From the NCBI RefSeq assembly GCF_013374995.1, contig NZ_CP056030.1, positions 4,930,501 through 4,994,500 of the forward strand: a stretch of 64,000 bases of DNA, read 5' to 3'. Position 1 is the first letter of the stretch; each line of letters starts with the position of its first letter. The stretch comes from Pseudomonas eucalypticola (GTDB taxonomy: Bacteria; Pseudomonadota; Gammaproteobacteria; Pseudomonadales; Pseudomonadaceae). Both the position numbers and the translations under genes were made by a program. The notes beneath the pieces were generated by a model. It was not told the origin of the DNA. It saw only the letters and a list, made by a program, of their open reading frames with translations, and made no database searches. Below, one piece after another: positions 6,239-63,656 of the stretch.

Positions 6239-7303
6239 TTAGAAATCGACGTCTGCGTCTACCATTTCGTCTTCGGCATCCGCTTCAACCGCGGTTGCTT
6301 TCTTGGCATCAACGCCGCCGGTCAGCAGCTTGTCACGGATCTGCTTCTCGAGGGCCGCACCGATTTCCGGGTTATCTGCCAGGAATTTGGCCGAGTTGGC
6401 CTTGCCCTGACCGATCTTGCTGCCCTGGTAGCTGTACCAGGCACCGGCTTTTTCCAACAGGCCGTGGGCAACGCCCAGGTCGATGATTTCGCCGTTGAGG
6501 TAGATGCCCTTGCCGTAAAGGATCTGGAATTCAGCCTGACGGAAAGGCGGTGCCACCTTGTTCTTGACGATCTTCACGCGGGTTTCGCTACCGACCACTT
6601 CGTCGCCTTCCTTCACCGCGCCGGTGCGACGGATGTCCAGACGGACCGAAGCGTAGAACTTCAGTGCGTTACCACCGGTAGTGGTTTCCGGGCTGCCGAA
6701 CATCACGCCGATCTTCATGCGGATCTGGTTGATGAAGATGACCAGGCAGTTGGCGTTCTTGATGTTACCGGTGATTTTGCGCAGCGCCTGGGACATCAGG
6801 CGAGCCTGCAGGCCCACGTGCATGTCCCCCATCTCGCCTTCGATCTCGGCCTTCGGTACCAGGGCTGCCACGGAGTCGACGATGATCACGTCAACGGCGT
6901 TGGAGCGCACCAGCATGTCGGTGATTTCCAGGGCCTGTTCGCCGGTGTCCGGCTGGGAGACCAGCAGGTCATCGACGTTCACGCCCAGTTTGCCGGCGTA
7001 TTCAGGGTCCAGGGCGTGCTCGGCGTCGACGAACGCACAGGTAGCGCCCATCTTCTGAGCCTGGGCGATCACCGACAGGGTCAGGGTGGTCTTACCCGAC
7101 GATTCCGGGCCGTAGATCTCGACGATACGGCCTTTCGGCAGGCCGCCGATGCCCAGCGCGATGTCCAGGCCCAGGGAGCCGGTGGAGATAGCAGGAATAG
7201 CCTGGCGGTCGTGGTCACCCATACGCATCACGGCACCCTTGCCGAATTGACGTTCGATCTGACCCAAGGCCGCAGCCAAGGCTTTCTTCTTGTTGTCGTC
7301 CAT
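6239..7303 (-). CDS. recA: RecA recombinase
   Basis: This is the 354-aa DNA-strand-exchange ATPase and LexA co-protease. It has Walker A GPESSGKT at 65-72, the Walker B strand [13 protein letters not shown], the L1/L2 DNA-binding region around [17 protein letters not shown] and [20 protein letters not shown], and a strongly acidic C-terminal tail ending VDADVDF. It is full length. A LexA-type operator lies 44-59 bp upstream. It precedes recX by 7 bp and follows cinA, as in other pseudomonads. The product acts in homologous repair, in SOS induction, and potentially in inactivation of the PrtR-like repressor encoded nearby. Confidence 0.98.
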
Positions 7304-9344: not shown

Positions 9345-11912
9345 ATGAGTGATCTTTCCAGCCACACCCCCATGATGCAGCAGTACTGGAAGCTGAAGAA
9401 CCAGCACCCGGACCAGTTGATGTTCTACCGCATGGGCGACTTCTACGAAATCTTCTACGAAGATGCGAAGAAAGCGGCCAAGTTGCTGGATATCACCCTG
9501 ACCGCTCGCGGCCAGTCGGCGGGGCAGTCGATCCCCATGTGCGGTATTCCCTACCACGCCGCCGAGGGCTACCTGGCCAAGCTGGTGAAGCTCGGCGAGT
9601 CGGTGGTGATCTGCGAGCAGGTGGGTGACCCTGCCACTAGCAAAGGCCCGGTGGAACGCCAGGTGGTGCGCATCATCACCCCGGGCACGGTGAGTGACGA
9701 AGCACTGCTGGACGAACGCCGCGACAACCTGATCGCCGCCGTGCTGGGCGACGAGCGGCTGTTCGGCCTGGCGGTGCTGGACATCACCAGCGGCAACTTC
9801 AGCGTGCTGGAGATCAAGGGCTGGGAAAACCTGCTGGCGGAGCTGGAGCGTATCAACCCGGTTGAACTGCTCATCCCCGACGACTGGCCCCAGGGCCTGC
9901 CTGCGGAGAAGCGTCGTGGTTCGCGCCGTCGCGCGCCATGGGACTTCGAGCGCGACAGCGCGCACAAGAGTCTGTGCCAGCAGTTCTCCACCCAGGACCT
10001 CAAGGGCTTTGGCTGCGAGAACCTGACCCTGGCCATCGGCGCCGCCGGCTGCCTGCTGGGCTACGCCAAGGAAACCCAGCGCACCGCCCTGCCCCACCTG
10101 CGCAGCCTGCGCCATGAGCGCCTGGATGACACCGTGGTGCTGGACGGCGCCAGCCGCCGCAACCTGGAACTGGACGTGAACCTGGCCGGCGGCCGCGACA
10201 ACACCTTGCAATCGGTGATCGACCGCTGCCAGACCGCCATGGGCAGCCGCCTGCTGACCCGCTGGCTGAACCGCCCGCTGCGTGACCTGAAAGTGCTCCA
10301 GGCGCGCCAGAGCTCCATCCGCTGCCTGCTGGAAGGCTACCGCTTCGAAAGCCTGCAACCGCAGCTCAAGGAAATCGGCGACATCGAGCGCATTCTGGCC
10401 CGTATCGGCCTGCGCAACGCGCGCCCGCGGGACCTGGCGCGCCTGCGCGACGCCCTGGCCGCGCTGCCGGACCTGCAAATGGCCATGGCCGACCTGGAAG
10501 CGCCGCACCTGGCGCTGCTGGCTACCATCGCTGGCACCTACCCGGAGTTGGCCGACCTGCTGGGCAAGGCCATCATCGACAACCCGCCTGCGGTGATCCG
10601 CGACGGCGGCGTGCTCAAGACCGGCTATGACAGCGAGCTGGACGAATTGCTGGCACTGAGCGAGAACGCCGGCCAGTTTTTGATTGACCTGGAAGCGCGG
10701 GAGAAGGCTCGTACGGGCCTGGCCAACCTGAAGGTCGGCTACAACCGTGTGCACGGCTATTTCATCGAACTGCCCAGCAAGCAGGCCGAGCAGGCGCCCG
10801 CCGACTATATCCGTCGCCAGACCCTCAAGGGCGCCGAGCGCTTCATCACCCCGGAACTCAAGGCGTTCGAAGACAAGGCGCTGTCGGCCAAGAGTCGCGC
10901 CCTGGCCCGGGAAAAGATGCTGTATGACGCGCTGCTGGAGAACCTGATCGGCCACCTGCCGCCCCTGCAGGACACTGCCGCGGCGCTGGCCGAGCTGGAC
11001 GTGCTGAGCAACCTGGCCGAGCGCGCGCTCACCCTGGACCTCAACTGCCCGGTGTTTGTCGACGAACCCTGCATGCGCATCAACCAGGGTCGCCACCCGG
11101 TGGTCGAGCAAGTATTGACCACGCCGTTCGTCGCCAACGACCTGGACCTGGATAACAACACCCGGATGCTGGTGATCACCGGCCCGAATATGGGCGGTAA
11201 ATCCACCTACATGCGCCAGACCGCACTGATCGTGCTGATGGCCCATATCGGCAGCTTCGTGCCGGCCGCCAGTTGCGAGCTGTCACCGGTGGACCGCATC
11301 TTTACCCGGATCGGCTCCAGCGACGACCTGGCCGGCGGGCGCTCGACCTTCATGGTGGAAATGAGCGAAACTGCCAACATCCTGCACAACGCCACGGACA
11401 AGAGCTTGGTGCTGATGGACGAAGTGGGCCGCGGCACCAGTACCTTTGACGGCCTGTCGCTGGCCTGGGCTGCCGCCGAGCGCCTGGCGCAACTGCGCGC
11501 CTACACGCTGTTTGCCACGCACTATTTCGAACTGACGGTGCTGCCGGAAAGCGAACCCCTGGTCGCCAACGTGCACCTGAGCGCCACCGAACACAAGGAA
11601 CGCATCGTGTTCCTGCACCACGTACTGCCAGGGCCTGCCAGCCAGAGTTATGGCCTGGCCGTGGCGCAGCTGGCCGGCGTGCCGAATGCCGTCATCGCCC
11701 GTGCCAAAGAACACCTGGGCCGCCTGGAAACGGCGAGCCTGCCACACGAACCCCTCGCCAGCGCCCCGGGCCAACCCCAGGTACCGCACCAGAGCGATCT
11801 GTTCGCCAGCTTGCCGCACCCGGTGCTGGAACAACTCAGCAAGACCGACGTTGATGGCCTGACGCCACGTCAGGCAATCGAATTACTCTATACACTGAAG
11901 ACACGGATCTAA
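9345..11912 (+). CDS. mutS: DNA mismatch repair protein MutS
   Basis: This 855-aa protein recognises mismatches and recruits MutL. The start is set at the ATG at 9345 ([15 protein letters not shown]), which matches MutS N-termini; the open frame begins earlier at a GTG at 9225 but that stretch overlaps the repressor promoter. The mismatch-reading Phe-X-Glu is F33-Y34-E35 within GDFYEIFYE. Walker [10 protein letters not shown] is at 613-621, followed by the [18 protein letters not shown] signature. The C-terminus includes the tetramerisation tail ([17 protein letters not shown]). Length is the same as P. aeruginosa MutS. fdxA follows on the same strand. Confidence 0.97.
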
Positions 11913-57312: not shown

Positions 57313-58113
57313 TCAGCCGCGCTCCGATGGCCGGCGGGTGCCCGCCACCAGCTTGTCCACCGCGCGCGCGGCGGCCACCATGCCGAAGGTGGCCGTGACC
57401 ATCATCACCGCGCCAAAGCCACCGGCGCAGTCCAGCTTGACCCCCTCGCCCACGAACGCCTTTGACAGGCACACCCCGCCATCGGCCTTGGGGTAGCGCA
57501 ACTGTTCGGTGGAATACACGCACGGCACGCTGTAATGGCGCGACGTGTTGCGTGAAAAACCGTAGTCGCGGCGCAGAGTGGACCGCACATTGGCGGCCAA
57601 CGGGTCATTGTAGGTGCGGTTCAGGTCCACCACCTGGATCTGTGTGGGGTCTACCTGGCCACCCGCGCCGCCGGTGGTGATGATGCCGATCTTGCGCCGC
57701 TTGCACCAGGCGATCAGCGCCGCCTTGGCGTTGACGCTGTCGATGCAGTCGATAACGTAATCCAGGTCGGCGGTGATGTACTCGGCCATGGTGTCACGGG
57801 TGACGAAGTCGGCCACCGCATGCACGGTGCACGCCGGGTTGATGGCTCGCAGACGTTCGGCCATGACCTCGACCTTGGGCTTGCCAACGTTGCCGTCCAG
57901 CGCATGTAGCTGGCGGTTGGTGTTGCTGACGCATACATCGTCCAGGTCAAACAGCGATATCTCCCCCACACCACTGCGGGCCATGGCTTCGGCCGCCCAG
58001 GAACCCACGCCGCCAATGCCGACAACGGCCACATGGGCGGCGCGCAAGCGCTGCATCCCCTCGCGGCCGTACAGCCGGGCAATACCTTCGAAACGTGGAT
58101 CGTCTGTGCTCAT
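57313..58113 (-). CDS. tcdA: tRNA threonylcarbamoyladenosine dehydratase
   Basis: This 266-aa E1-like enzyme (CsdL) dehydrates t6A37 to the cyclic ct6A form. The ATP loop is VVGIGGVGSWAAEAMARSG, and FDLDDVCVSNTNRQ and DCIDSVNAKAALI follow, with the C-terminal AGGFGAVMMVTATFG. I start it at the ATG at 58113 (MSTDDPRFEGIARLYG). A -10 (TATAAT on the minus strand, 58141-58146) lies 28 bp upstream. Confidence 0.95.
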   Translation of the reverse strand: MSTDDPRFEGIARLYGREGMQRLRAAHVAVVGIGGVGSWAAEAMARSGVGEISLFDLDDVCVSNTNRQLHALDGNVGKPKVEVMAERLRAINPACTVHAVADFVTRDTMAEYITADLDYVIDCIDSVNAKAALIAWCKRRKIGIITTGGAGGQVDPTQIQVVDLNRTYNDPLAANVRSTLRRDYGFSRNTSRHYSVPCVYSTEQLRYPKADGGVCLSKAFVGEGVKLDCAGGFGAVMMVTATFGMVAAARAVDKLVAGTRRPSERG

Positions 58114-58140
58114 GGACCTGGACCTCAAAAACCGGCGCGC

Positions 58141-58367: not shown

Positions 58368-60959
58368 ATGTCATCGCGTAAATTTGGTCTCAACCTGGTG
58401 ATAGTCGTCGCGATCGCGGCACTCTTCACCGGTTTCTGGGCGCTGATCAACCGCCCGGTCAGCGCCCCCGACTGGCCTGAACAAATCTCCGGTTTCTCCT
58501 ACTCGCCGTTCCGCCTGGGCCAAAGCCCGCAGAAAGAGCAGTACCCCACTGACGACGAAATGCGCCAGGACCTGGAGCAACTGAGCAAGCTCACCGACAG
58601 CATCCGTATCTACTCGGTAGACGGCACCCAGGCGGATATCCCCAAGATCGCCGAGGAATTCGGCCTGCGGGTGACGGTGGGCGTGTGGATCAGCCCGGAC
58701 CTGGAGCGTAACGAGCGGGAAATTGCCAAGGCCATCGAACTGGCCAACACCACCCGCAGTGTCGTACGCGTGGTAGTGGGCAACGAGGCGCTGTTCCGCA
58801 AGGAGGTCACGGTCAAGGACCTGGAAGCCTATCTGGACCGCGTCCGCGCGGCCGTCAAGGTACCGGTGACCACCTCCGAACAATGGCACATCTGGGAGCA
58901 CAACCCGTCGCTGGCCAAGCACGTGGACCTGATCGCCGCGCACATCCTGCCGTACTGGGAATTCATCCCGGTGGACAAGGCCGAGCAGTTCGTCCTGGAC
59001 CGCGCCCGCGAACTCAAGCACCTGTTCCCGAAAAAGCCGTTGCTGTTGTCTGAGGTGGGCTGGCCGAGCAACGGGCGCATGCGCGGTGGCGCCGACGCGA
59101 CCCAGGCCGACCAGGCCATTTACCTGCGCACGCTGGTCAATAAGCTCAACCGCCAGGGCTACAACTACTTCGTGATCGAAGCCTACGACCAGCCGTGGAA
59201 GGCCAGTGACGAGGGCTCGGTGGGCGCCTACTGGGGCGTGTACAACGCCCAGCGCCAGCAGAAGTTCAACTTCGAAGGGCCGGTGGTGGCCATTCCCCAA
59301 TGGCGCGTACTGGCCGTGGGTTCGGTGGTGCTGGCCATGCTCTCGCTGGCCCTGCTGCTGATCGATGGCTCGGCCCTGCGCCAGCGGGGCCGTACTTTCC
59401 TGACCTTCATTGCCTTCCTGTGCGGTTCGGTGCTGGTATGGATCGGCTACGACTACAGCCAGCAATACAGCACCTGGTTCAGCCTCACCGTGGGCTTCCT
59501 CCTGGCCCTGGGAGCGCTGGGGGTGTTCATCGTGCTGCTCACCGAGGCCCATGAACTAGCCGAAGCCGTATGGATTCACAAGCGCCGGCGCGAATTCCTG
59601 CCCGTGGAAGGTGACTCCACCTACCGGCCGAAGGTGTCCATTCATGTGCCGTGCTACAACGAGCCACCGGATATGGTCAAACAGACCCTGGACGCGCTCG
59701 CGGCATTGGACTATCCGGACTACGAAGTCCTGATCATCGACAACAACACCAAGGACCCGGCGGTGTGGGAACCGGTTCAGGCCTACTGCCAGACGCTGGG
59801 CCCGCGCTTCAAGTTCTTCCACGTCGCACCGCTGGCCGGTTTCAAGGGCGGTGCGCTGAACTACCTGATTCCGCACACCGCGCCAGACGCCGAAGTGATC
59901 GCCGTGATCGACTCCGACTACTGCGTGGACAAGAACTGGCTCAAGCACATGGTGCCGCACTTCGCCGACCCGAAGATCGCCGTGGTGCAATCGCCCCAGG
60001 ACTACCGCGACCAGAACGAGAGTACCTTCAAGAAACTCTGCTATTCGGAATACAAGGGCTTCTTCCACATCGGCATGGTGACCCGCAACGACCGCGACGC
60101 GATCATTCAGCACGGCACCATGACCATGACCCGCCGCTCGGTACTCGAAGAGCTGGGCTGGGCGGACTGGTGCATCTGTGAAGACGCTGAACTGGGCCTG
60201 CGCGTGTTCGAGAAAGGCTACTCGGCTGCGTACTACCACAACAGCTACGGCAAGGGCCTGATGCCCGACACATTCATCGACTTCAAGAAGCAGCGCTTTC
60301 GCTGGGCCTACGGTGCCATCCAGATCATCAAGCGCCACACCGCCAGCCTGCTGCGCGGCAAGGACACCGAACTGACCCGTGGGCAGCGCTACCACTTCCT
60401 GGCCGGCTGGCTGCCGTGGGTCGCCGACGGCATGAACATTTTCTTCACCGTGGGCGCACTGCTGTGGTCGGCGGCCATGATCATCGTGCCGCAACGGGTC
60501 GACCCGCCCCTGTTGATCTTCGCCATCCCGCCCTTGGCGCTGTTCGTCTTCAAGGTGGGCAAGATCGTGTTCCTGTACCGCCGCGCGGTGGGTGTGAACC
60601 TCAAGGACGCCTTTGCCGCCGCGCTGGCGGGTCTGGCGCTGTCGCACACCATTGCCAAGGCCGTGCTGTACGGGTTCTTCACCACCAGCATCCCGTTCTT
60701 CCGTACACCGAAAAACGCCGACAGCCACGGTTTGCTGGTAGCCATTTCCGAAGCCCGGGAAGAACTGTTCATCATGCTGCTGCTGTGGGGCGCCGCCTCG
60801 GGTATCTGCCTGGTGCAGGGCCTGCCCAGCAATGACATGCGCCTGTGGGTGACCATGTTGCTGGTGCAGTCGCTACCTTACCTGGCCTCGCTGATCATGG
60901 CCTTCCTGTCGTCGCTGCCCAAACCGGCGCCAGCGCCGGAACCCGCCACCGCCCAGTAA
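58368..60959 (+). CDS. GH17-GT2 membrane beta-glucan synthase/transglycosylase, NdvB-like (copy A)
   Basis: This 863-aa protein starts at the ATG at 58368, chosen because it is followed at once by the membrane anchor; two earlier starts (58290, 58302) add polar residues. A membrane helix (8-27) is followed by a GH17 domain (~35-305) with acid/base E140 in VVVGNE and nucleophile E229 in LLSEVGWPS. Three helices (~314-333, 343-361, 370-391) precede a GT2 domain from ~421 with DSD at 515-517, ED at 605-606 and QRFRW at 642-646, then C-terminal helices. The anchor plus three linker helices put GH17 in the periplasm and GT2 in the cytoplasm. Relatives make and remodel periplasmic beta-1,3/1,6-glucans. 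Confidence 0.88.
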   Translation: MSSRKFGLNLVIVVAIAALFTGFWALINRPVSAPDWPEQISGFSYSPFRLGQSPQKEQYPTDDEMRQDLEQLSKLTDSIRIYSVDGTQADIPKIAEEFGLRVTVGVWISPDLERNEREIAKAIELANTTRSVVRVVVGNEALFRKEVTVKDLEAYLDRVRAAVKVPVTTSEQWHIWEHNPSLAKHVDLIAAHILPYWEFIPVDKAEQFVLDRARELKHLFPKKPLLLSEVGWPSNGRMRGGADATQADQAIYLRTLVNKLNRQGYNYFVIEAYDQPWKASDEGSVGAYWGVYNAQRQQKFNFEGPVVAIPQWRVLAVGSVVLAMLSLALLLIDGSALRQRGRTFLTFIAFLCGSVLVWIGYDYSQQYSTWFSLTVGFLLALGALGVFIVLLTEAHELAEAVWIHKRRREFLPVEGDSTYRPKVSIHVPCYNEPPDMVKQTLDALAALDYPDYEVLIIDNNTKDPAVWEPVQAYCQTLGPRFKFFHVAPLAGFKGGALNYLIPHTAPDAEVIAVIDSDYCVDKNWLKHMVPHFADPKIAVVQSPQDYRDQNESTFKKLCYSEYKGFFHIGMVTRNDRDAIIQHGTMTMTRRSVLEELGWADWCICEDAELGLRVFEKGYSAAYYHNSYGKGLMPDTFIDFKKQRFRWAYGAIQIIKRHTASLLRGKDTELTRGQRYHFLAGWLPWVADGMNIFFTVGALLWSAAMIIVPQRVDPPLLIFAIPPLALFVFKVGKIVFLYRRAVGVNLKDAFAAALAGLALSHTIAKAVLYGFFTTSIPFFRTPKNADSHGLLVAISEAREELFIMLLLWGAASGICLVQGLPSNDMRLWVTMLLVQSLPYLASLIMAFLSSLPKPAPAPEPATAQ

Positions 60960-60965
60960 CCCGTG

Positions 60966-60986
60966 AAGCCCGCGCAAGCGGGCTTT
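60966..60986 (+). terminator. Terminator between the two GH17-GT2 genes
   Basis: An 8-bp perfect stem (60966-60973 with 60978-60985) with a GCAA tetraloop ends in TTT, 6 bp after the stop of copy A. The T-run is short. It suggests that copy B has its own promoter. Confidence 0.7.
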
Positions 60987-61001: not shown

Positions 61002-61079
61002 GTTGCAATGCAACCCACAATAACGTCCTGTTTGAATCATTTTATACCTTAGTTGCAACGACTATTACGCCGGTATAAA
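61002..61079 (+). promoter_or_regulatory. Promoter region of the second GH17-GT2 gene
   Basis: This AT-rich stretch contains GTTGCAATGCAAC (61002-61014, arms GTTGCA/TGCAAC), a second GTTGCAAC at 61052-61059, and a TATAAA (61074-61079) 27 bp before the ATG. The TTGCAA at 61053-61058 could be a -35 but the spacing of 15 bp is short. The repeated GTTGCA unit may be a regulator site. Confidence 0.4.
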
Positions 61080-61106
61080 AACCCTTGTGCCAGAGGGTAT
61101 TCAAAC

Positions 61107-63656
61107 ATGAACTTACCGCACGCCGACAATAATGAAAAAACATTCGCGGACTACTGGAACGGAAAAAAATCCTTCCCCCCCGCCTGGCCAGCGAAAGTGT
61201 CAGGCTTTTCCTACGCTCCGTTCAAAGCCGGGCAAACGCCTGGCACGGCCAAGACAGTGCCTGAAGAAGGAATCCGTGATGACCTGAAGTTATTGCAACA
61301 ATTCACCGATCATGTCCGCTGCTATTCAAGCACCGGTGCAAACAAGGCCATCGCTGAAATCGCCGTATCACTGGGCATCACAGTGACCCTCGGCATCTGG
61401 ATCGGCGAAGACCTGGAGCAGAACGAAGCGGAACTGGCCGCTGGCATCGCACTGGCCAACAGCACCCTCAGCGTGGTGCGCGTGATCGTCGGTAACGAGT
61501 CGCTGTTCAAACGACTGATATCGCCCGAACAGATGATCCACTATCTGGACCGCGTCAGGCAGGCTGTACAGGTACCGGTCACGACAGCGGAGCCCTGGCA
61601 TCTATGGTCCGTGTACCCAGAACTTATCGAGCACGTCGACCTTATTGCCGCCCATGTGCTGCCTTACTGGGAATTCATCGAAGCCCGGGATGCCTGCCCC
61701 ATCATCCTGGCGCGGGCTGCCCAATTGCAGGCGCTGTACCCTCGAAAGAAAATTCTGTTGGCTGAAGTAGGCTGGCCTAGCCAGGGCCACCTCATAGGCG
61801 GTAAACCCACAACTCCTTCTGAGCAGGCAATACTGCTGAGGTCATTGACCCATGCCCTGAACGACCAGGCGATCGACTATTTTCTCATCGAAGCCTTCGA
61901 CCAGCCTTGGAAAATCGACGAGGGTAACTCGGGGCCCCACTGGGGCATTTTCGACGGCACCCGTCGACCGAAATTTCCGTTCCAGGGGCCCGTCGATAAC
62001 CGCACACGCTGGAGGAACCTGTTTCCACTGCTTGTTAGCCGGATGGCGTTACGCAAGCGTGGCTGGCTGTTTCTGGCGGTTGTGGGCATGGCGGCGCTGG
62101 TGTTCGCCGGCGCAGGCGTCGTGATGGGCGCCGCGCAGGCATTTACACCCTATGCTCTGGGAGCAGCGGCCCTGTGGACAGCGTTGATCGGCGTCGCGCT
62201 GTTTTCCCAAGCCCATGAAATGGCAGAAGCTGCCTGGTCACTGCATCACCGTCGCGTGTTCTACCCGGTGACCTACCCCCGCGCCTATCGCCCGAAAGTG
62301 TCCATACATGTGCCCTGTCACAATGAACCGGCCGCCATGGTCATGCAGACCTTGGACGCACTGGCGCAATTGGACTATCCCGATTACGAAGTGCTGGTGA
62401 TCGATAACAACACCCCACTGGCCGCGACCTGGCTGCCGGTACAAGCTCACTGCCGGGCTCTCGGCCAGCGCTTCAGGTTTTATCATGTTTCCAATTTGCA
62501 AGGGTTCAAGGCCGGCGCCCTGAATTACGCGTTGGCACTAACGGCCGCTGACGCAGAACTGGTGGCGGTGATCGATTCGGACTATTGCGTGCACCGTGAC
62601 TGGCTCAAACAACTGGCACCGCTGATGCTGGATCCGCACCTGGGGTTCATTCAGTCGCCGCAAGACTACCGGGACCACCACATAAATCTCTACAACCAGA
62701 TTTGTTATGACGAATACCGTACGTTCTTCCATGTCGGAATGGTCATCCGCAATAACTACGATGCCATCATTCAACATGGCACCATGACCATCATCCGAAA
62801 GTCGGTACTGGATCAATTGAAATGGTCGCCCTGGTGCATTTGTGAAGATGCGGAACTGGGCCTGAATATCCTGAGCCATGGTTATTCCAGTGCCTACTGC
62901 ACCGATAGCTACGGCCGAGGGCTTATCCCCCATACCTTCGAAGACTTTCAAAAACAGCGATTTCGCTGGGCGTACGGCGCGGTGCAAATCCTCAGGCACC
63001 ATCGGCGGGCGCTGGTGCGGCCCGGGAAACTGAGTATTGCCCAACGCTACCACTTTGTCGTGGGCTGGCTACCCTGGCTCGGCAATGGCATCGCGCTGCC
63101 ACTGACCCTGGCTAGCCTTGCGTGGTCGGTGTTGATGGTGGTGGCGCCCACCCAGCGCCCTGCCCCCTGGTTGCTGACCCTTCCGATACTGGCGCTAACC
63201 CTCTTCAAACTGGTCAAGATAGCGTTCATCTACCTGCGCGTCATGGGGCTGCATTTCAAACACGCATTGCTTGCCACCGTCGGCGGCATGGCCCTTCACC
63301 ACACCATTGCCAAAGCCGTGATTTACGGCGCCATCAGCGAGCACATGCCATTCGTGCGCACGCCCAAATACCCCAAGTCCCAAGGCTGGCGCCGTTCGCT
63401 GCACAGCGTGCGCGATGAGTTGGCTTTGGCGGTCGCCCTGATGGCAGCAGGGGGTGGCATCCAAACACGTCACGGCTTCGCCTCGTTCGACCTGCTGCTG
63501 TGGCAACTCCTGCTGCTGGCTGAATCGCTGCCGTACCTAGCCGCGCTGTTCATGGCGTTCCTGGGGTGGCATTGCAACGCGGCCGACACCGTGAACGCGC
63601 CAGGACCGCTGGCGGAGAGCAGCCCGCCCCCCAGCTCAGAGCGAGAAATTTCCTAG
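61107..63656 (+). CDS. GH17-GT2 membrane protein with altered topology (copy B)
   Basis: This 849-aa paralogue of the preceding protein starts at the ATG at 61107 (GAGGG 10 bp upstream). GH17 acid/base E131 (VIVGNE) and nucleophile E220 (LLAEVGWPS) are kept, as are GT2 DSD (490-492), ED (580-581) and QRFRW (617-621). Its N-terminus (MNLPHADNNEKTFADYW) has no membrane anchor or signal, and only two linker helices (~320-341, 347-367) remain; the first linker helix of copy A is missing. With GT2 cytoplasmic, GH17 should also be cytoplasmic. The gene appears AT-richer at its 5' end and carries A6, A7 and C7 runs there. Confidence 0.85.
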   Translation: MNLPHADNNEKTFADYWNGKKSFPPAWPAKVSGFSYAPFKAGQTPGTAKTVPEEGIRDDLKLLQQFTDHVRCYSSTGANKAIAEIAVSLGITVTLGIWIGEDLEQNEAELAAGIALANSTLSVVRVIVGNESLFKRLISPEQMIHYLDRVRQAVQVPVTTAEPWHLWSVYPELIEHVDLIAAHVLPYWEFIEARDACPIILARAAQLQALYPRKKILLAEVGWPSQGHLIGGKPTTPSEQAILLRSLTHALNDQAIDYFLIEAFDQPWKIDEGNSGPHWGIFDGTRRPKFPFQGPVDNRTRWRNLFPLLVSRMALRKRGWLFLAVVGMAALVFAGAGVVMGAAQAFTPYALGAAALWTALIGVALFSQAHEMAEAAWSLHHRRVFYPVTYPRAYRPKVSIHVPCHNEPAAMVMQTLDALAQLDYPDYEVLVIDNNTPLAATWLPVQAHCRALGQRFRFYHVSNLQGFKAGALNYALALTAADAELVAVIDSDYCVHRDWLKQLAPLMLDPHLGFIQSPQDYRDHHINLYNQICYDEYRTFFHVGMVIRNNYDAIIQHGTMTIIRKSVLDQLKWSPWCICEDAELGLNILSHGYSSAYCTDSYGRGLIPHTFEDFQKQRFRWAYGAVQILRHHRRALVRPGKLSIAQRYHFVVGWLPWLGNGIALPLTLASLAWSVLMVVAPTQRPAPWLLTLPILALTLFKLVKIAFIYLRVMGLHFKHALLATVGGMALHHTIAKAVIYGAISEHMPFVRTPKYPKSQGWRRSLHSVRDELALAVALMAAGGGIQTRHGFASFDLLLWQLLLLAESLPYLAALFMAFLGWHCNAADTVNAPGPLAESSPPPSSEREIS

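Follow-up and report, generated by a model that had tools for sequence, protein, structure and literature searches.

The window analysed here, a stretch of 64,000 nucleotides from Pseudomonas eucalypticola, contains a tandem pair of GH17-GT2 membrane synthase genes, copy A followed by copy B, as seen in an open reading frame check. Proteins of the copy A type were named 'Orphan', and it was proposed that their GT2 domain makes beta-1,3-glucan, which a periplasmic GH17 domain cleaves and cyclises; in vitro, two A-type proteins were shown to have GH17 domains with beta-1,3-glucanosyltransferase activity (PMC10237404, 2023; here and below we refer to the accessible part of that paper). A preliminary description of the window claimed that copy B lacks the N-terminal anchor and precisely one of the three linker helices of copy A, which would leave its GH17 domain in the cytoplasm. 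This raises the question on which side of the membrane the GH17 domain of copy B lies, and whether it is still a working enzyme there.

Part of the answer has been anticipated. The Orphan of P. syringae DC3000 has no signal peptide according to several programs, its AlphaFold model has GH17 on the GT2 side, and for five other P. syringae Orphans Protter predicted no signal peptide and a GH17 domain in the cytoplasm; the DC3000 protein was suggested to be non-functional, and indels of 3-9 residues and a 14-residue insertion were mentioned (PMC10237404). The cytoplasmic GH17 of P. syringae Orphans is therefore prior art. No mention of a missing linker helix was found in the accessible part of that source, and the word 'cysteine' is absent from its main text. 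Searched by titles and abstract openings, the literature on such a topology switch or on GH17-GT2 enzymes held nothing else on point. The paired helix loss, the reverse anchors, the cysteine switch and the evidence for selection appear to be new.

Results

Gene pair and locus

Copies A and B (Table 1) are about 50% identical over 815 aligned positions. Copy A sits at the tcdA-Orphan-dapE locus, the left-hand gene of which we take to be tcdA, and the gene order in this genome (G000) is tcdA - A - B - fimbrial operon - dapE. Copy B thus shares the tcdA-Orphan-dapE locus of the Orphans, in the canonical order found in L189. The operon that separates it from dapE is of the chaperone-usher type, with genes for what we take, from their sequence, to be pilin-like proteins, a chaperone and an 813-aa usher; it extends from 63794 to the end of the window and onward in L141 (8794-13232). 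In L189 the Orphan gene directly adjoins dapE. The GC3 of copy B (0.70) is lower than that of copy A (0.86) and of the neighbours (0.83-0.84).

Directly 3' of copy A an 8-bp hairpin, AAGCCCGC-GCAA-GCGGGCTT, was found by eye at 60966-60985. It may mark the end of the copy A transcript, so that copy B may form its own transcription unit. A terminator scan of the plus strand after copy A called none by its own rule, this hairpin included, and a sigma-70 scan found no promoter upstream of copy B.

Anchor, linker and domains of copy B

A hydropathy scan placed the helices of copy A before GT2 at residues 9-27, 314-332, 343-361 and 373-391, which agrees with the anchor and three linker helices of the preliminary description. 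In copy B it revealed two linker helices (321-339 and 349-367) and no N-terminal anchor or signal. Two further hydrophobic stretches (81-99 and 110-128) belong to the GH17 fold, where the structure model shows helices and strands. A hidden upstream start that would provide an anchor was ruled out, since an in-frame stop directly precedes the TTG at 61053, which limits any extension to 18 non-hydrophobic residues. Nor did inspection by eye of the two remaining frames between 60960 and 61260 reveal a hidden anchor. A third linker helix at 300-320 was not found on two hydrophobicity scales. In the structure model a continuous helix spans 302-345, of which 302-318 is Arg-rich and partly of low confidence. 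The linker of copy B is 15 residues shorter than that of copy A (102 versus 117), and what remains, NRTRWRNLFPLLVSRMALRKRG, is charged and not long enough to span the membrane. The claims that copy B has lost the anchor and precisely one linker helix thus both stood.

Domain matches and structure alignment place GH17 ahead of GT2 within one membrane protein. The GH17 fold with its two catalytic glutamates is present, as are the GT2 motifs D, DxD, ED and QxxRW and a BcsA-like TM core. Pfam and NCBIfam gave matches to GH17 and GT2 types alone, those from NCBIfam being of the GT2 type and below the cut-off. In the model (pLDDT 84.1, the side of GH17 not being given by it), residues 319-835 align with residues 66-613 of R. 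sphaeroides BcsA, and the GH17 part aligns with 4wtp; no entry fusing GH17 and GT2 was among the PDB structure matches listed. The FVRTPK motif is presumably the counterpart of the BcsA gating loop.

Table 1. Coordinates of the gene pair, its left-hand neighbour and the parts of copy B
Feature	Position in window	Strand	Remarks
tcdA (CsdL-type)	57313-58128	-	left marker of canonical Orphan locus; gene order matches L188 and L189
Copy A	58368-60959	+	863 aa; canonical GH17-GT2 synthase of the 'Orphan'/NdvB (PA1163) type; N-in anchor, then GH17, three linker helices, GT2 and TM helices at the C-terminus
Sole possible N-terminal extension of copy B	61053-61106	+	TTG start, 18 aa, not hydrophobic
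Copy B	61107-63656	+	849 aa; anchorless two-linker GH17-GT2 synthase, GH17 predicted cytoplasmic
GH17 domain of copy B	61185-61988	+	aa 27-294; acid/base E131, nucleophile E220; two cysteines
Arg-rich remnant of copy B	61989-62066	+	aa 295-320, opposite linker helix 1 of copy A in alignment; model helix from 302, pLDDT <50 at 311-318
Two linker TM helices of copy B	62067-62207	+	aa 321-343 and ~349-367
GT2 domain of copy B	62292-63026	+	aa 396-640; PF13641, 89.6 bits; D433, D490, D492, E580-D581, Q617, R620, W621 intact
C-terminal TM region of copy B	63027-63575	+	aa 641-823; gating-loop-like FVRTPK (F749, T752-K754 invariant)

Anchor and linker helices across homologues

We counted helices in 293 distinct homologues on a free-energy scale, with Kyte-Doolittle hydropathy as a check on it. 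An anchor and three linkers were found in 244 proteins, no anchor and two linkers in 33, an anchor and two linkers in 11 and other combinations in five, the sequences being related and the counts therefore not independent events; for P0151 and P0155 the call of 'no anchor' is uninformative because both lack their N-termini. Of the five others, P0003 is annotated with a short start, L134 lies at a contig edge, and in P0143, P0148 and P0157 one of the two helices stays under the cut-off. Kyte-Doolittle hydropathy at four cut-offs gave the same split, apart from four proteins read as having no anchor and three linkers. Linker lengths are bimodal without overlap (116-118 versus 100-107).

The orientation of the anchors, judged by flanking charge, follows the number of linkers. 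Three-linker anchors are N-in in 231 cases, tied in 10 and N-out in three. Proteins with fewer than three linkers have 12 anchors between them, of which 10 are N-out, two are ties and none is N-in. One of these 10 belongs to L145, a fragment of the broken G632 gene, which was kept in the parity and charge census but excluded from the tree, from the cysteine counts and from the Kyte-Doolittle census.

Charge and cysteine signals

For the residue counts the sequences were thinned by core identity, from 46 to 37 two-linker (97%) and from 246 to 31 three-linker representatives (88%), and rows with more than 150 gaps were dropped. Between GH17 and the first linker helix the mean number of K+R was 4.44 in two-linker (n=34) versus 0.81 in three-linker proteins (n=31), and in the loop after that helix 0.21 versus 2.71; the 34 are those of the 37 two-linker representatives with both helices called, and the reversed pattern occurred in none of them.

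Cysteines in GH17 separate the two groups as well. They are absent from all 31 three-linker representatives and present in 29 of 36 two-linker ones (one to four each, leaving seven without), P0155 being outside the counts as its GH17 is too short; in the fuller set the figures are 2/246 versus 31/45. Parsimony assigned 0 GH17 cysteine changes to the three-linker and 44 to the two-linker proteins, on trees of 10.75 and 10.92 units, and 21 versus 36 to the always cytoplasmic GT2 domain used as a control (Fisher p 8.7e-7, the counted changes being not fully independent). Scattered over 28 sites and often odd in number, these cysteines do not look like disulfide partners. A 517-residue frame elsewhere in this genome (L003, G000:C1:1449977-1450813) encodes a membrane protein with GH17, an N-terminal hydrophobic stretch, C-terminal helices and no GT2 match. 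Its GH17 carries two cysteines, and the cysteine rule consequently holds for the GH17-GT2 family and not for all GH17 domains.

Catalytic residues and selection

The catalytic residues of both domains are intact in all 37 two-linker representatives, and the preliminary description was right that copy B keeps them, those of GT2 included. The residue preceding the GH17 acid/base (position 130 in copy B numbering) is N in 31/37 two-linker representatives, H or S in the other six, and N in 31/31 three-linker representatives. GH17 dN/dS ranged from 0.11 to 0.21 in five two-linker pairs versus 0.10 to 0.26 in 13 three-linker pairs. These 13 were the first found in random order, have two reference genes in common and lack independence; a sixth two-linker pair had been planned but was skipped, its locus lying outside the set. 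The GH17 domain of the two-linker relatives is thus under purifying selection. Together with the intact catalytic residues, the dN/dS of the relatives disfavours copy B as a pseudogene.

Relative to GT2, the rates in the B pair were 1.99 for GH17 and 2.83 for the C-terminal TM region, against 1.52 and 1.38 in three-linker Pseudomonas proteins, and this faster evolution may reflect partial relaxation. The C-terminal TM rate was 1.84-2.83 in the two-linker groups and reached 1.81 in three-linker proteins outside Pseudomonas, so that a relaxed channel in the two-linker groups is only hinted at.

Distribution of two-linker proteins

Close relatives of copy B are rare. Among the best 120 of 6485 matches in 5.8 billion proteins there was one other B-type protein, P0002 from a metagenome contig, which is 76% identical to copy B and lacks the same anchor and linker helix; the other 118 were 49-53% identical. 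At 1e-100 or better, 125 of 149 genus genomes match copy B, the B-type gene occurring only in the window's own genome. In a contig scan the best segments were 48-52% identical to copy B among the best 80 of 566 loci, a set that may omit records near the window's genome.

Two-linker architecture as such is more widespread, which rules out copy B as a single-gene oddity. The Orphan genes of the P. syringae group also lack the first linker helix. P0149, P0150, P0152-P0154 and P0156-P0158 combine two linkers with a very N-terminal helix that has positive charges after and not before it; two of the eight are ties because of Arg residues inside the called helix. G024, G438 and G593 contain an extra paralogue that likewise has two linkers and such a reverse anchor. 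A two-linker gene is present in at least 11 of 398 genus genomes, namely six with intact syringae-type or P0149-type genes, G632 with a broken one, the three with the extra paralogue and the one with copy B. All 18 class-level loci that were fetched have three linkers. With the reverse-anchor protein P0156 as query, matches in the 398 genus genomes reached 57% identity, no better than the 57% of copy A; the 12 that were fetched all have three linkers, and no further reverse-anchor gene of the P0156 group was found in these genomes.

The syringae-type gene of G632 matches in three separate pieces (L177, L183, L184) and appears broken. The extra paralogue of G438 (L186, 7406-9931) lies between transposase-like ORFs at 6250-7233 and 10310-11191, the displayed starts of which share one stretch, and has a GC3 of 0.56, below most of its neighbours (0.7-0.9); it looks mobile.

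Phylogeny

In a tree built from 695 columns without anchor and linker, the two-linker proteins fall on one side of a branch with 98/98 support. Support for joining the B pair to the extra paralogue is weak (75/63). A placement of copy B among three-linker Pseudomonas proteins was not rejected by an AU test (p 0.07). Core identity to copy B is 0.54 for copy A, 0.46-0.51 for the syringae-type and reverse-anchor groups and 0.41-0.43 for the extra paralogue. Inside the two-linker clade reverse anchors occur in several lineages and anchorless proteins twice, once as the B pair and once as the syringae-type group; from this we propose as a plausible order that the linker helix was lost with reversal of the anchor, and that the anchor was then lost twice. 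The canonical tcdA-Orphan-dapE order holds a three-linker gene in L189 and a two-linker gene in L188, and such gene order supports descent at one locus.

Discussion

The placement of the copy B GH17 domain in the cytoplasm, as first suggested from its helices, gained support from helix parity, positive-inside charges and the cysteine switch, and on these signals we hold it with high confidence. That the domain is functional is very likely, and cytoplasmic location and function taken together remain likely. A coordinated architecture rather than decay was also borne out, by parity, charges, cysteines, catalytic residues and the dN/dS of relatives. The design is not peculiar to copy B, however, because the set includes the Orphans of the P. 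syringae group, for which a cytoplasmic GH17 had been predicted (PMC10237404).

We propose that copy B represents an inverted-topology branch of the pseudomonad GH17-GT2 'Orphan'/NdvB synthases and acts as a membrane beta-glucan synthase. Its BcsA-like GT2 domain would be cytoplasmic, and so would its N-terminal GH17 beta-1,3-glucanosyltransferase domain. Anchor and first linker helix would have been altered as a pair, with one crossing before GT2 removed and the N-terminal helix either reversed (N-out) or dropped. The GT2 domain would extend glucan from UDP-glucose, while the tethered GH17 may cut and re-join it on the cytoplasmic face before export, so as to prime the chain, control its length or cyclise it. 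The preliminary description had suggested the nascent chain or a lipid-linked primer as putative substrates. In a BcsA-like synthase the chain normally passes directly into the membrane channel, so that a cytoplasmic GH17 may hardly be able to reach it. As copy B has kept a BcsA-like core and a gating-loop-like motif, such threading may still take place, and GH17 may act on primers or recycled oligosaccharides.

A bolder reading, to which we give a probability of about 0.35, is that a single switch moved a working GH17 domain from the periplasm to the cytoplasm within a fused synthase: membrane parity would have been kept by dropping the linker helix and reversing the anchor, which would then have disappeared on two or more later occasions. 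This would have created a second design of beta-1,3-glucan synthase, with cutting, joining or cyclisation of the chain before export, convergent with Agrobacterium Cgs. The conserved catalytic residues would also fit a GH17 domain that is cytoplasmic and catalytic but works off the nascent chain, remodelling soluble or recycled laminari-oligosaccharides or supplying primers, and the retained BcsA-like core and gating-loop-like motif suggest that the chain may go directly to the channel; on the other hand, every two-linker protein examined has retained the fusion, which favours a role on the chain made by the attached synthase, and we consider the off-chain role rather unlikely. Degeneration to non-functional proteins, as suggested for the DC3000 Orphan (PMC10237404), seems improbable to us. 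It would account for the difference of the published DC3000 model from the canonical form, for the G632 gene in pieces and for the somewhat faster evolution of GH17 and the TM region, but it conflicts with open frames, invariant catalytic residues, dN/dS values like those of three-linker proteins and a parity that was maintained through further changes of the N-terminus. For GH17 to be still periplasmic, either an unrecognised route or mis-assigned helices with the first linker crossing the other way would be needed; with neither signal nor anchor in copy B, GT2 cytoplasmic by homology to BcsA, no reversed charge pattern among the 34 proteins and the switch in cysteines, this is very improbable.

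As for history, and compatible with our main proposal, the architecture of copy B could have arisen independently of the P. syringae-type proteins by a convergent double loss. The AU test leaves copy B a place with three-linker Pseudomonas proteins, and its core is no nearer to the two-linker groups (0.41-0.51) than to copy A. Yet the columns without the trait gave a single two-linker clade at 98/98, the tcdA-dapE locus is shared, and the 102-residue linker of copy B equals that of several reverse-anchor proteins, which makes an independent origin unlikely.

Copy B resembles the Orphan/NdvB (PA1163) cyclic-beta-glucan synthases (PMC10237404) in domain order, catalytic residues, BcsA-like core and the tcdA-Orphan-dapE locus. 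It differs from them by the lack of an N-in anchor and of linker helix 1, by a GH17 predicted on the GT2 side and by its GH17 cysteines. The consensus Orphan is characterised by a periplasmic GH17, an N-terminal signal or anchor and three linker helices; copy B departs from this topology, and we therefore file it as a member of an inverted-topology sister branch. With two linkers and no anchor it fits the inverted two-linker branch, which we define by two linkers and either no anchor or an N-out anchor. Copy B and the Orphans of the P. syringae group (subclade 6.1, PMC10237404) have in common the absence of a signal peptide, a GH17 domain predicted to be cytoplasmic, two linkers and, probably, the same clade, at a core identity of 46-51%. 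Those Orphan genes, however, adjoin dapE at the canonical locus and had no second copy that we found in intact cases, whereas copy B stands beside copy A.

The closest works-like model for copy B is Agrobacterium Cgs, as far as described in the accessible part of PMC10901819. All soluble domains of Cgs are cytoplasmic, and its GT2-like domain uses the protein itself for priming. Synthesis of the main chain takes place in the cytoplasm and precedes export, and the TM domain does not provide an export channel. Both proteins would combine a GT2-like synthase under the membrane with cytoplasmic soluble domains, the Cgs product being exported by the Cgt transporter. Where copy B has GT2 and GH17, however, Cgs carries GT84, a putative cyclase and GH94; it comprises about 2,800 residues and makes a beta-1,2 linkage. 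The structural match to the 849-aa copy B is confined to the TM/GT part, and the likeness is a functional analogy only; by this analogy, a Cgs-like use of the copy B GH17 is possible at somewhat less than even odds. Among the other structural relatives, BcsA cellulose synthase and the hyaluronan synthases (4p00, 8snc) are without GH17, and the PilZ domain of BcsA was not found in copy B. The Rhizomucor miehei GH17 beta-1,3-glucanosyltransferase (4wtp) is a stand-alone fungal enzyme, unlike the fused copy B.

It is unusual for a catalytic domain to switch compartment while it stays fused and functional. Since possible intermediates, the reverse anchors, survive, one can trace the route that the switch took. 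The presence or absence of GH17 cysteines provides a simple sequence test of compartment within the GH17-GT2 family. The Orphans of P. syringae, one of which was described as probably non-functional, are recast as likely working enzymes of another design, and the tandem paralogues A and B in one genome make cyclisation before versus after export testable.
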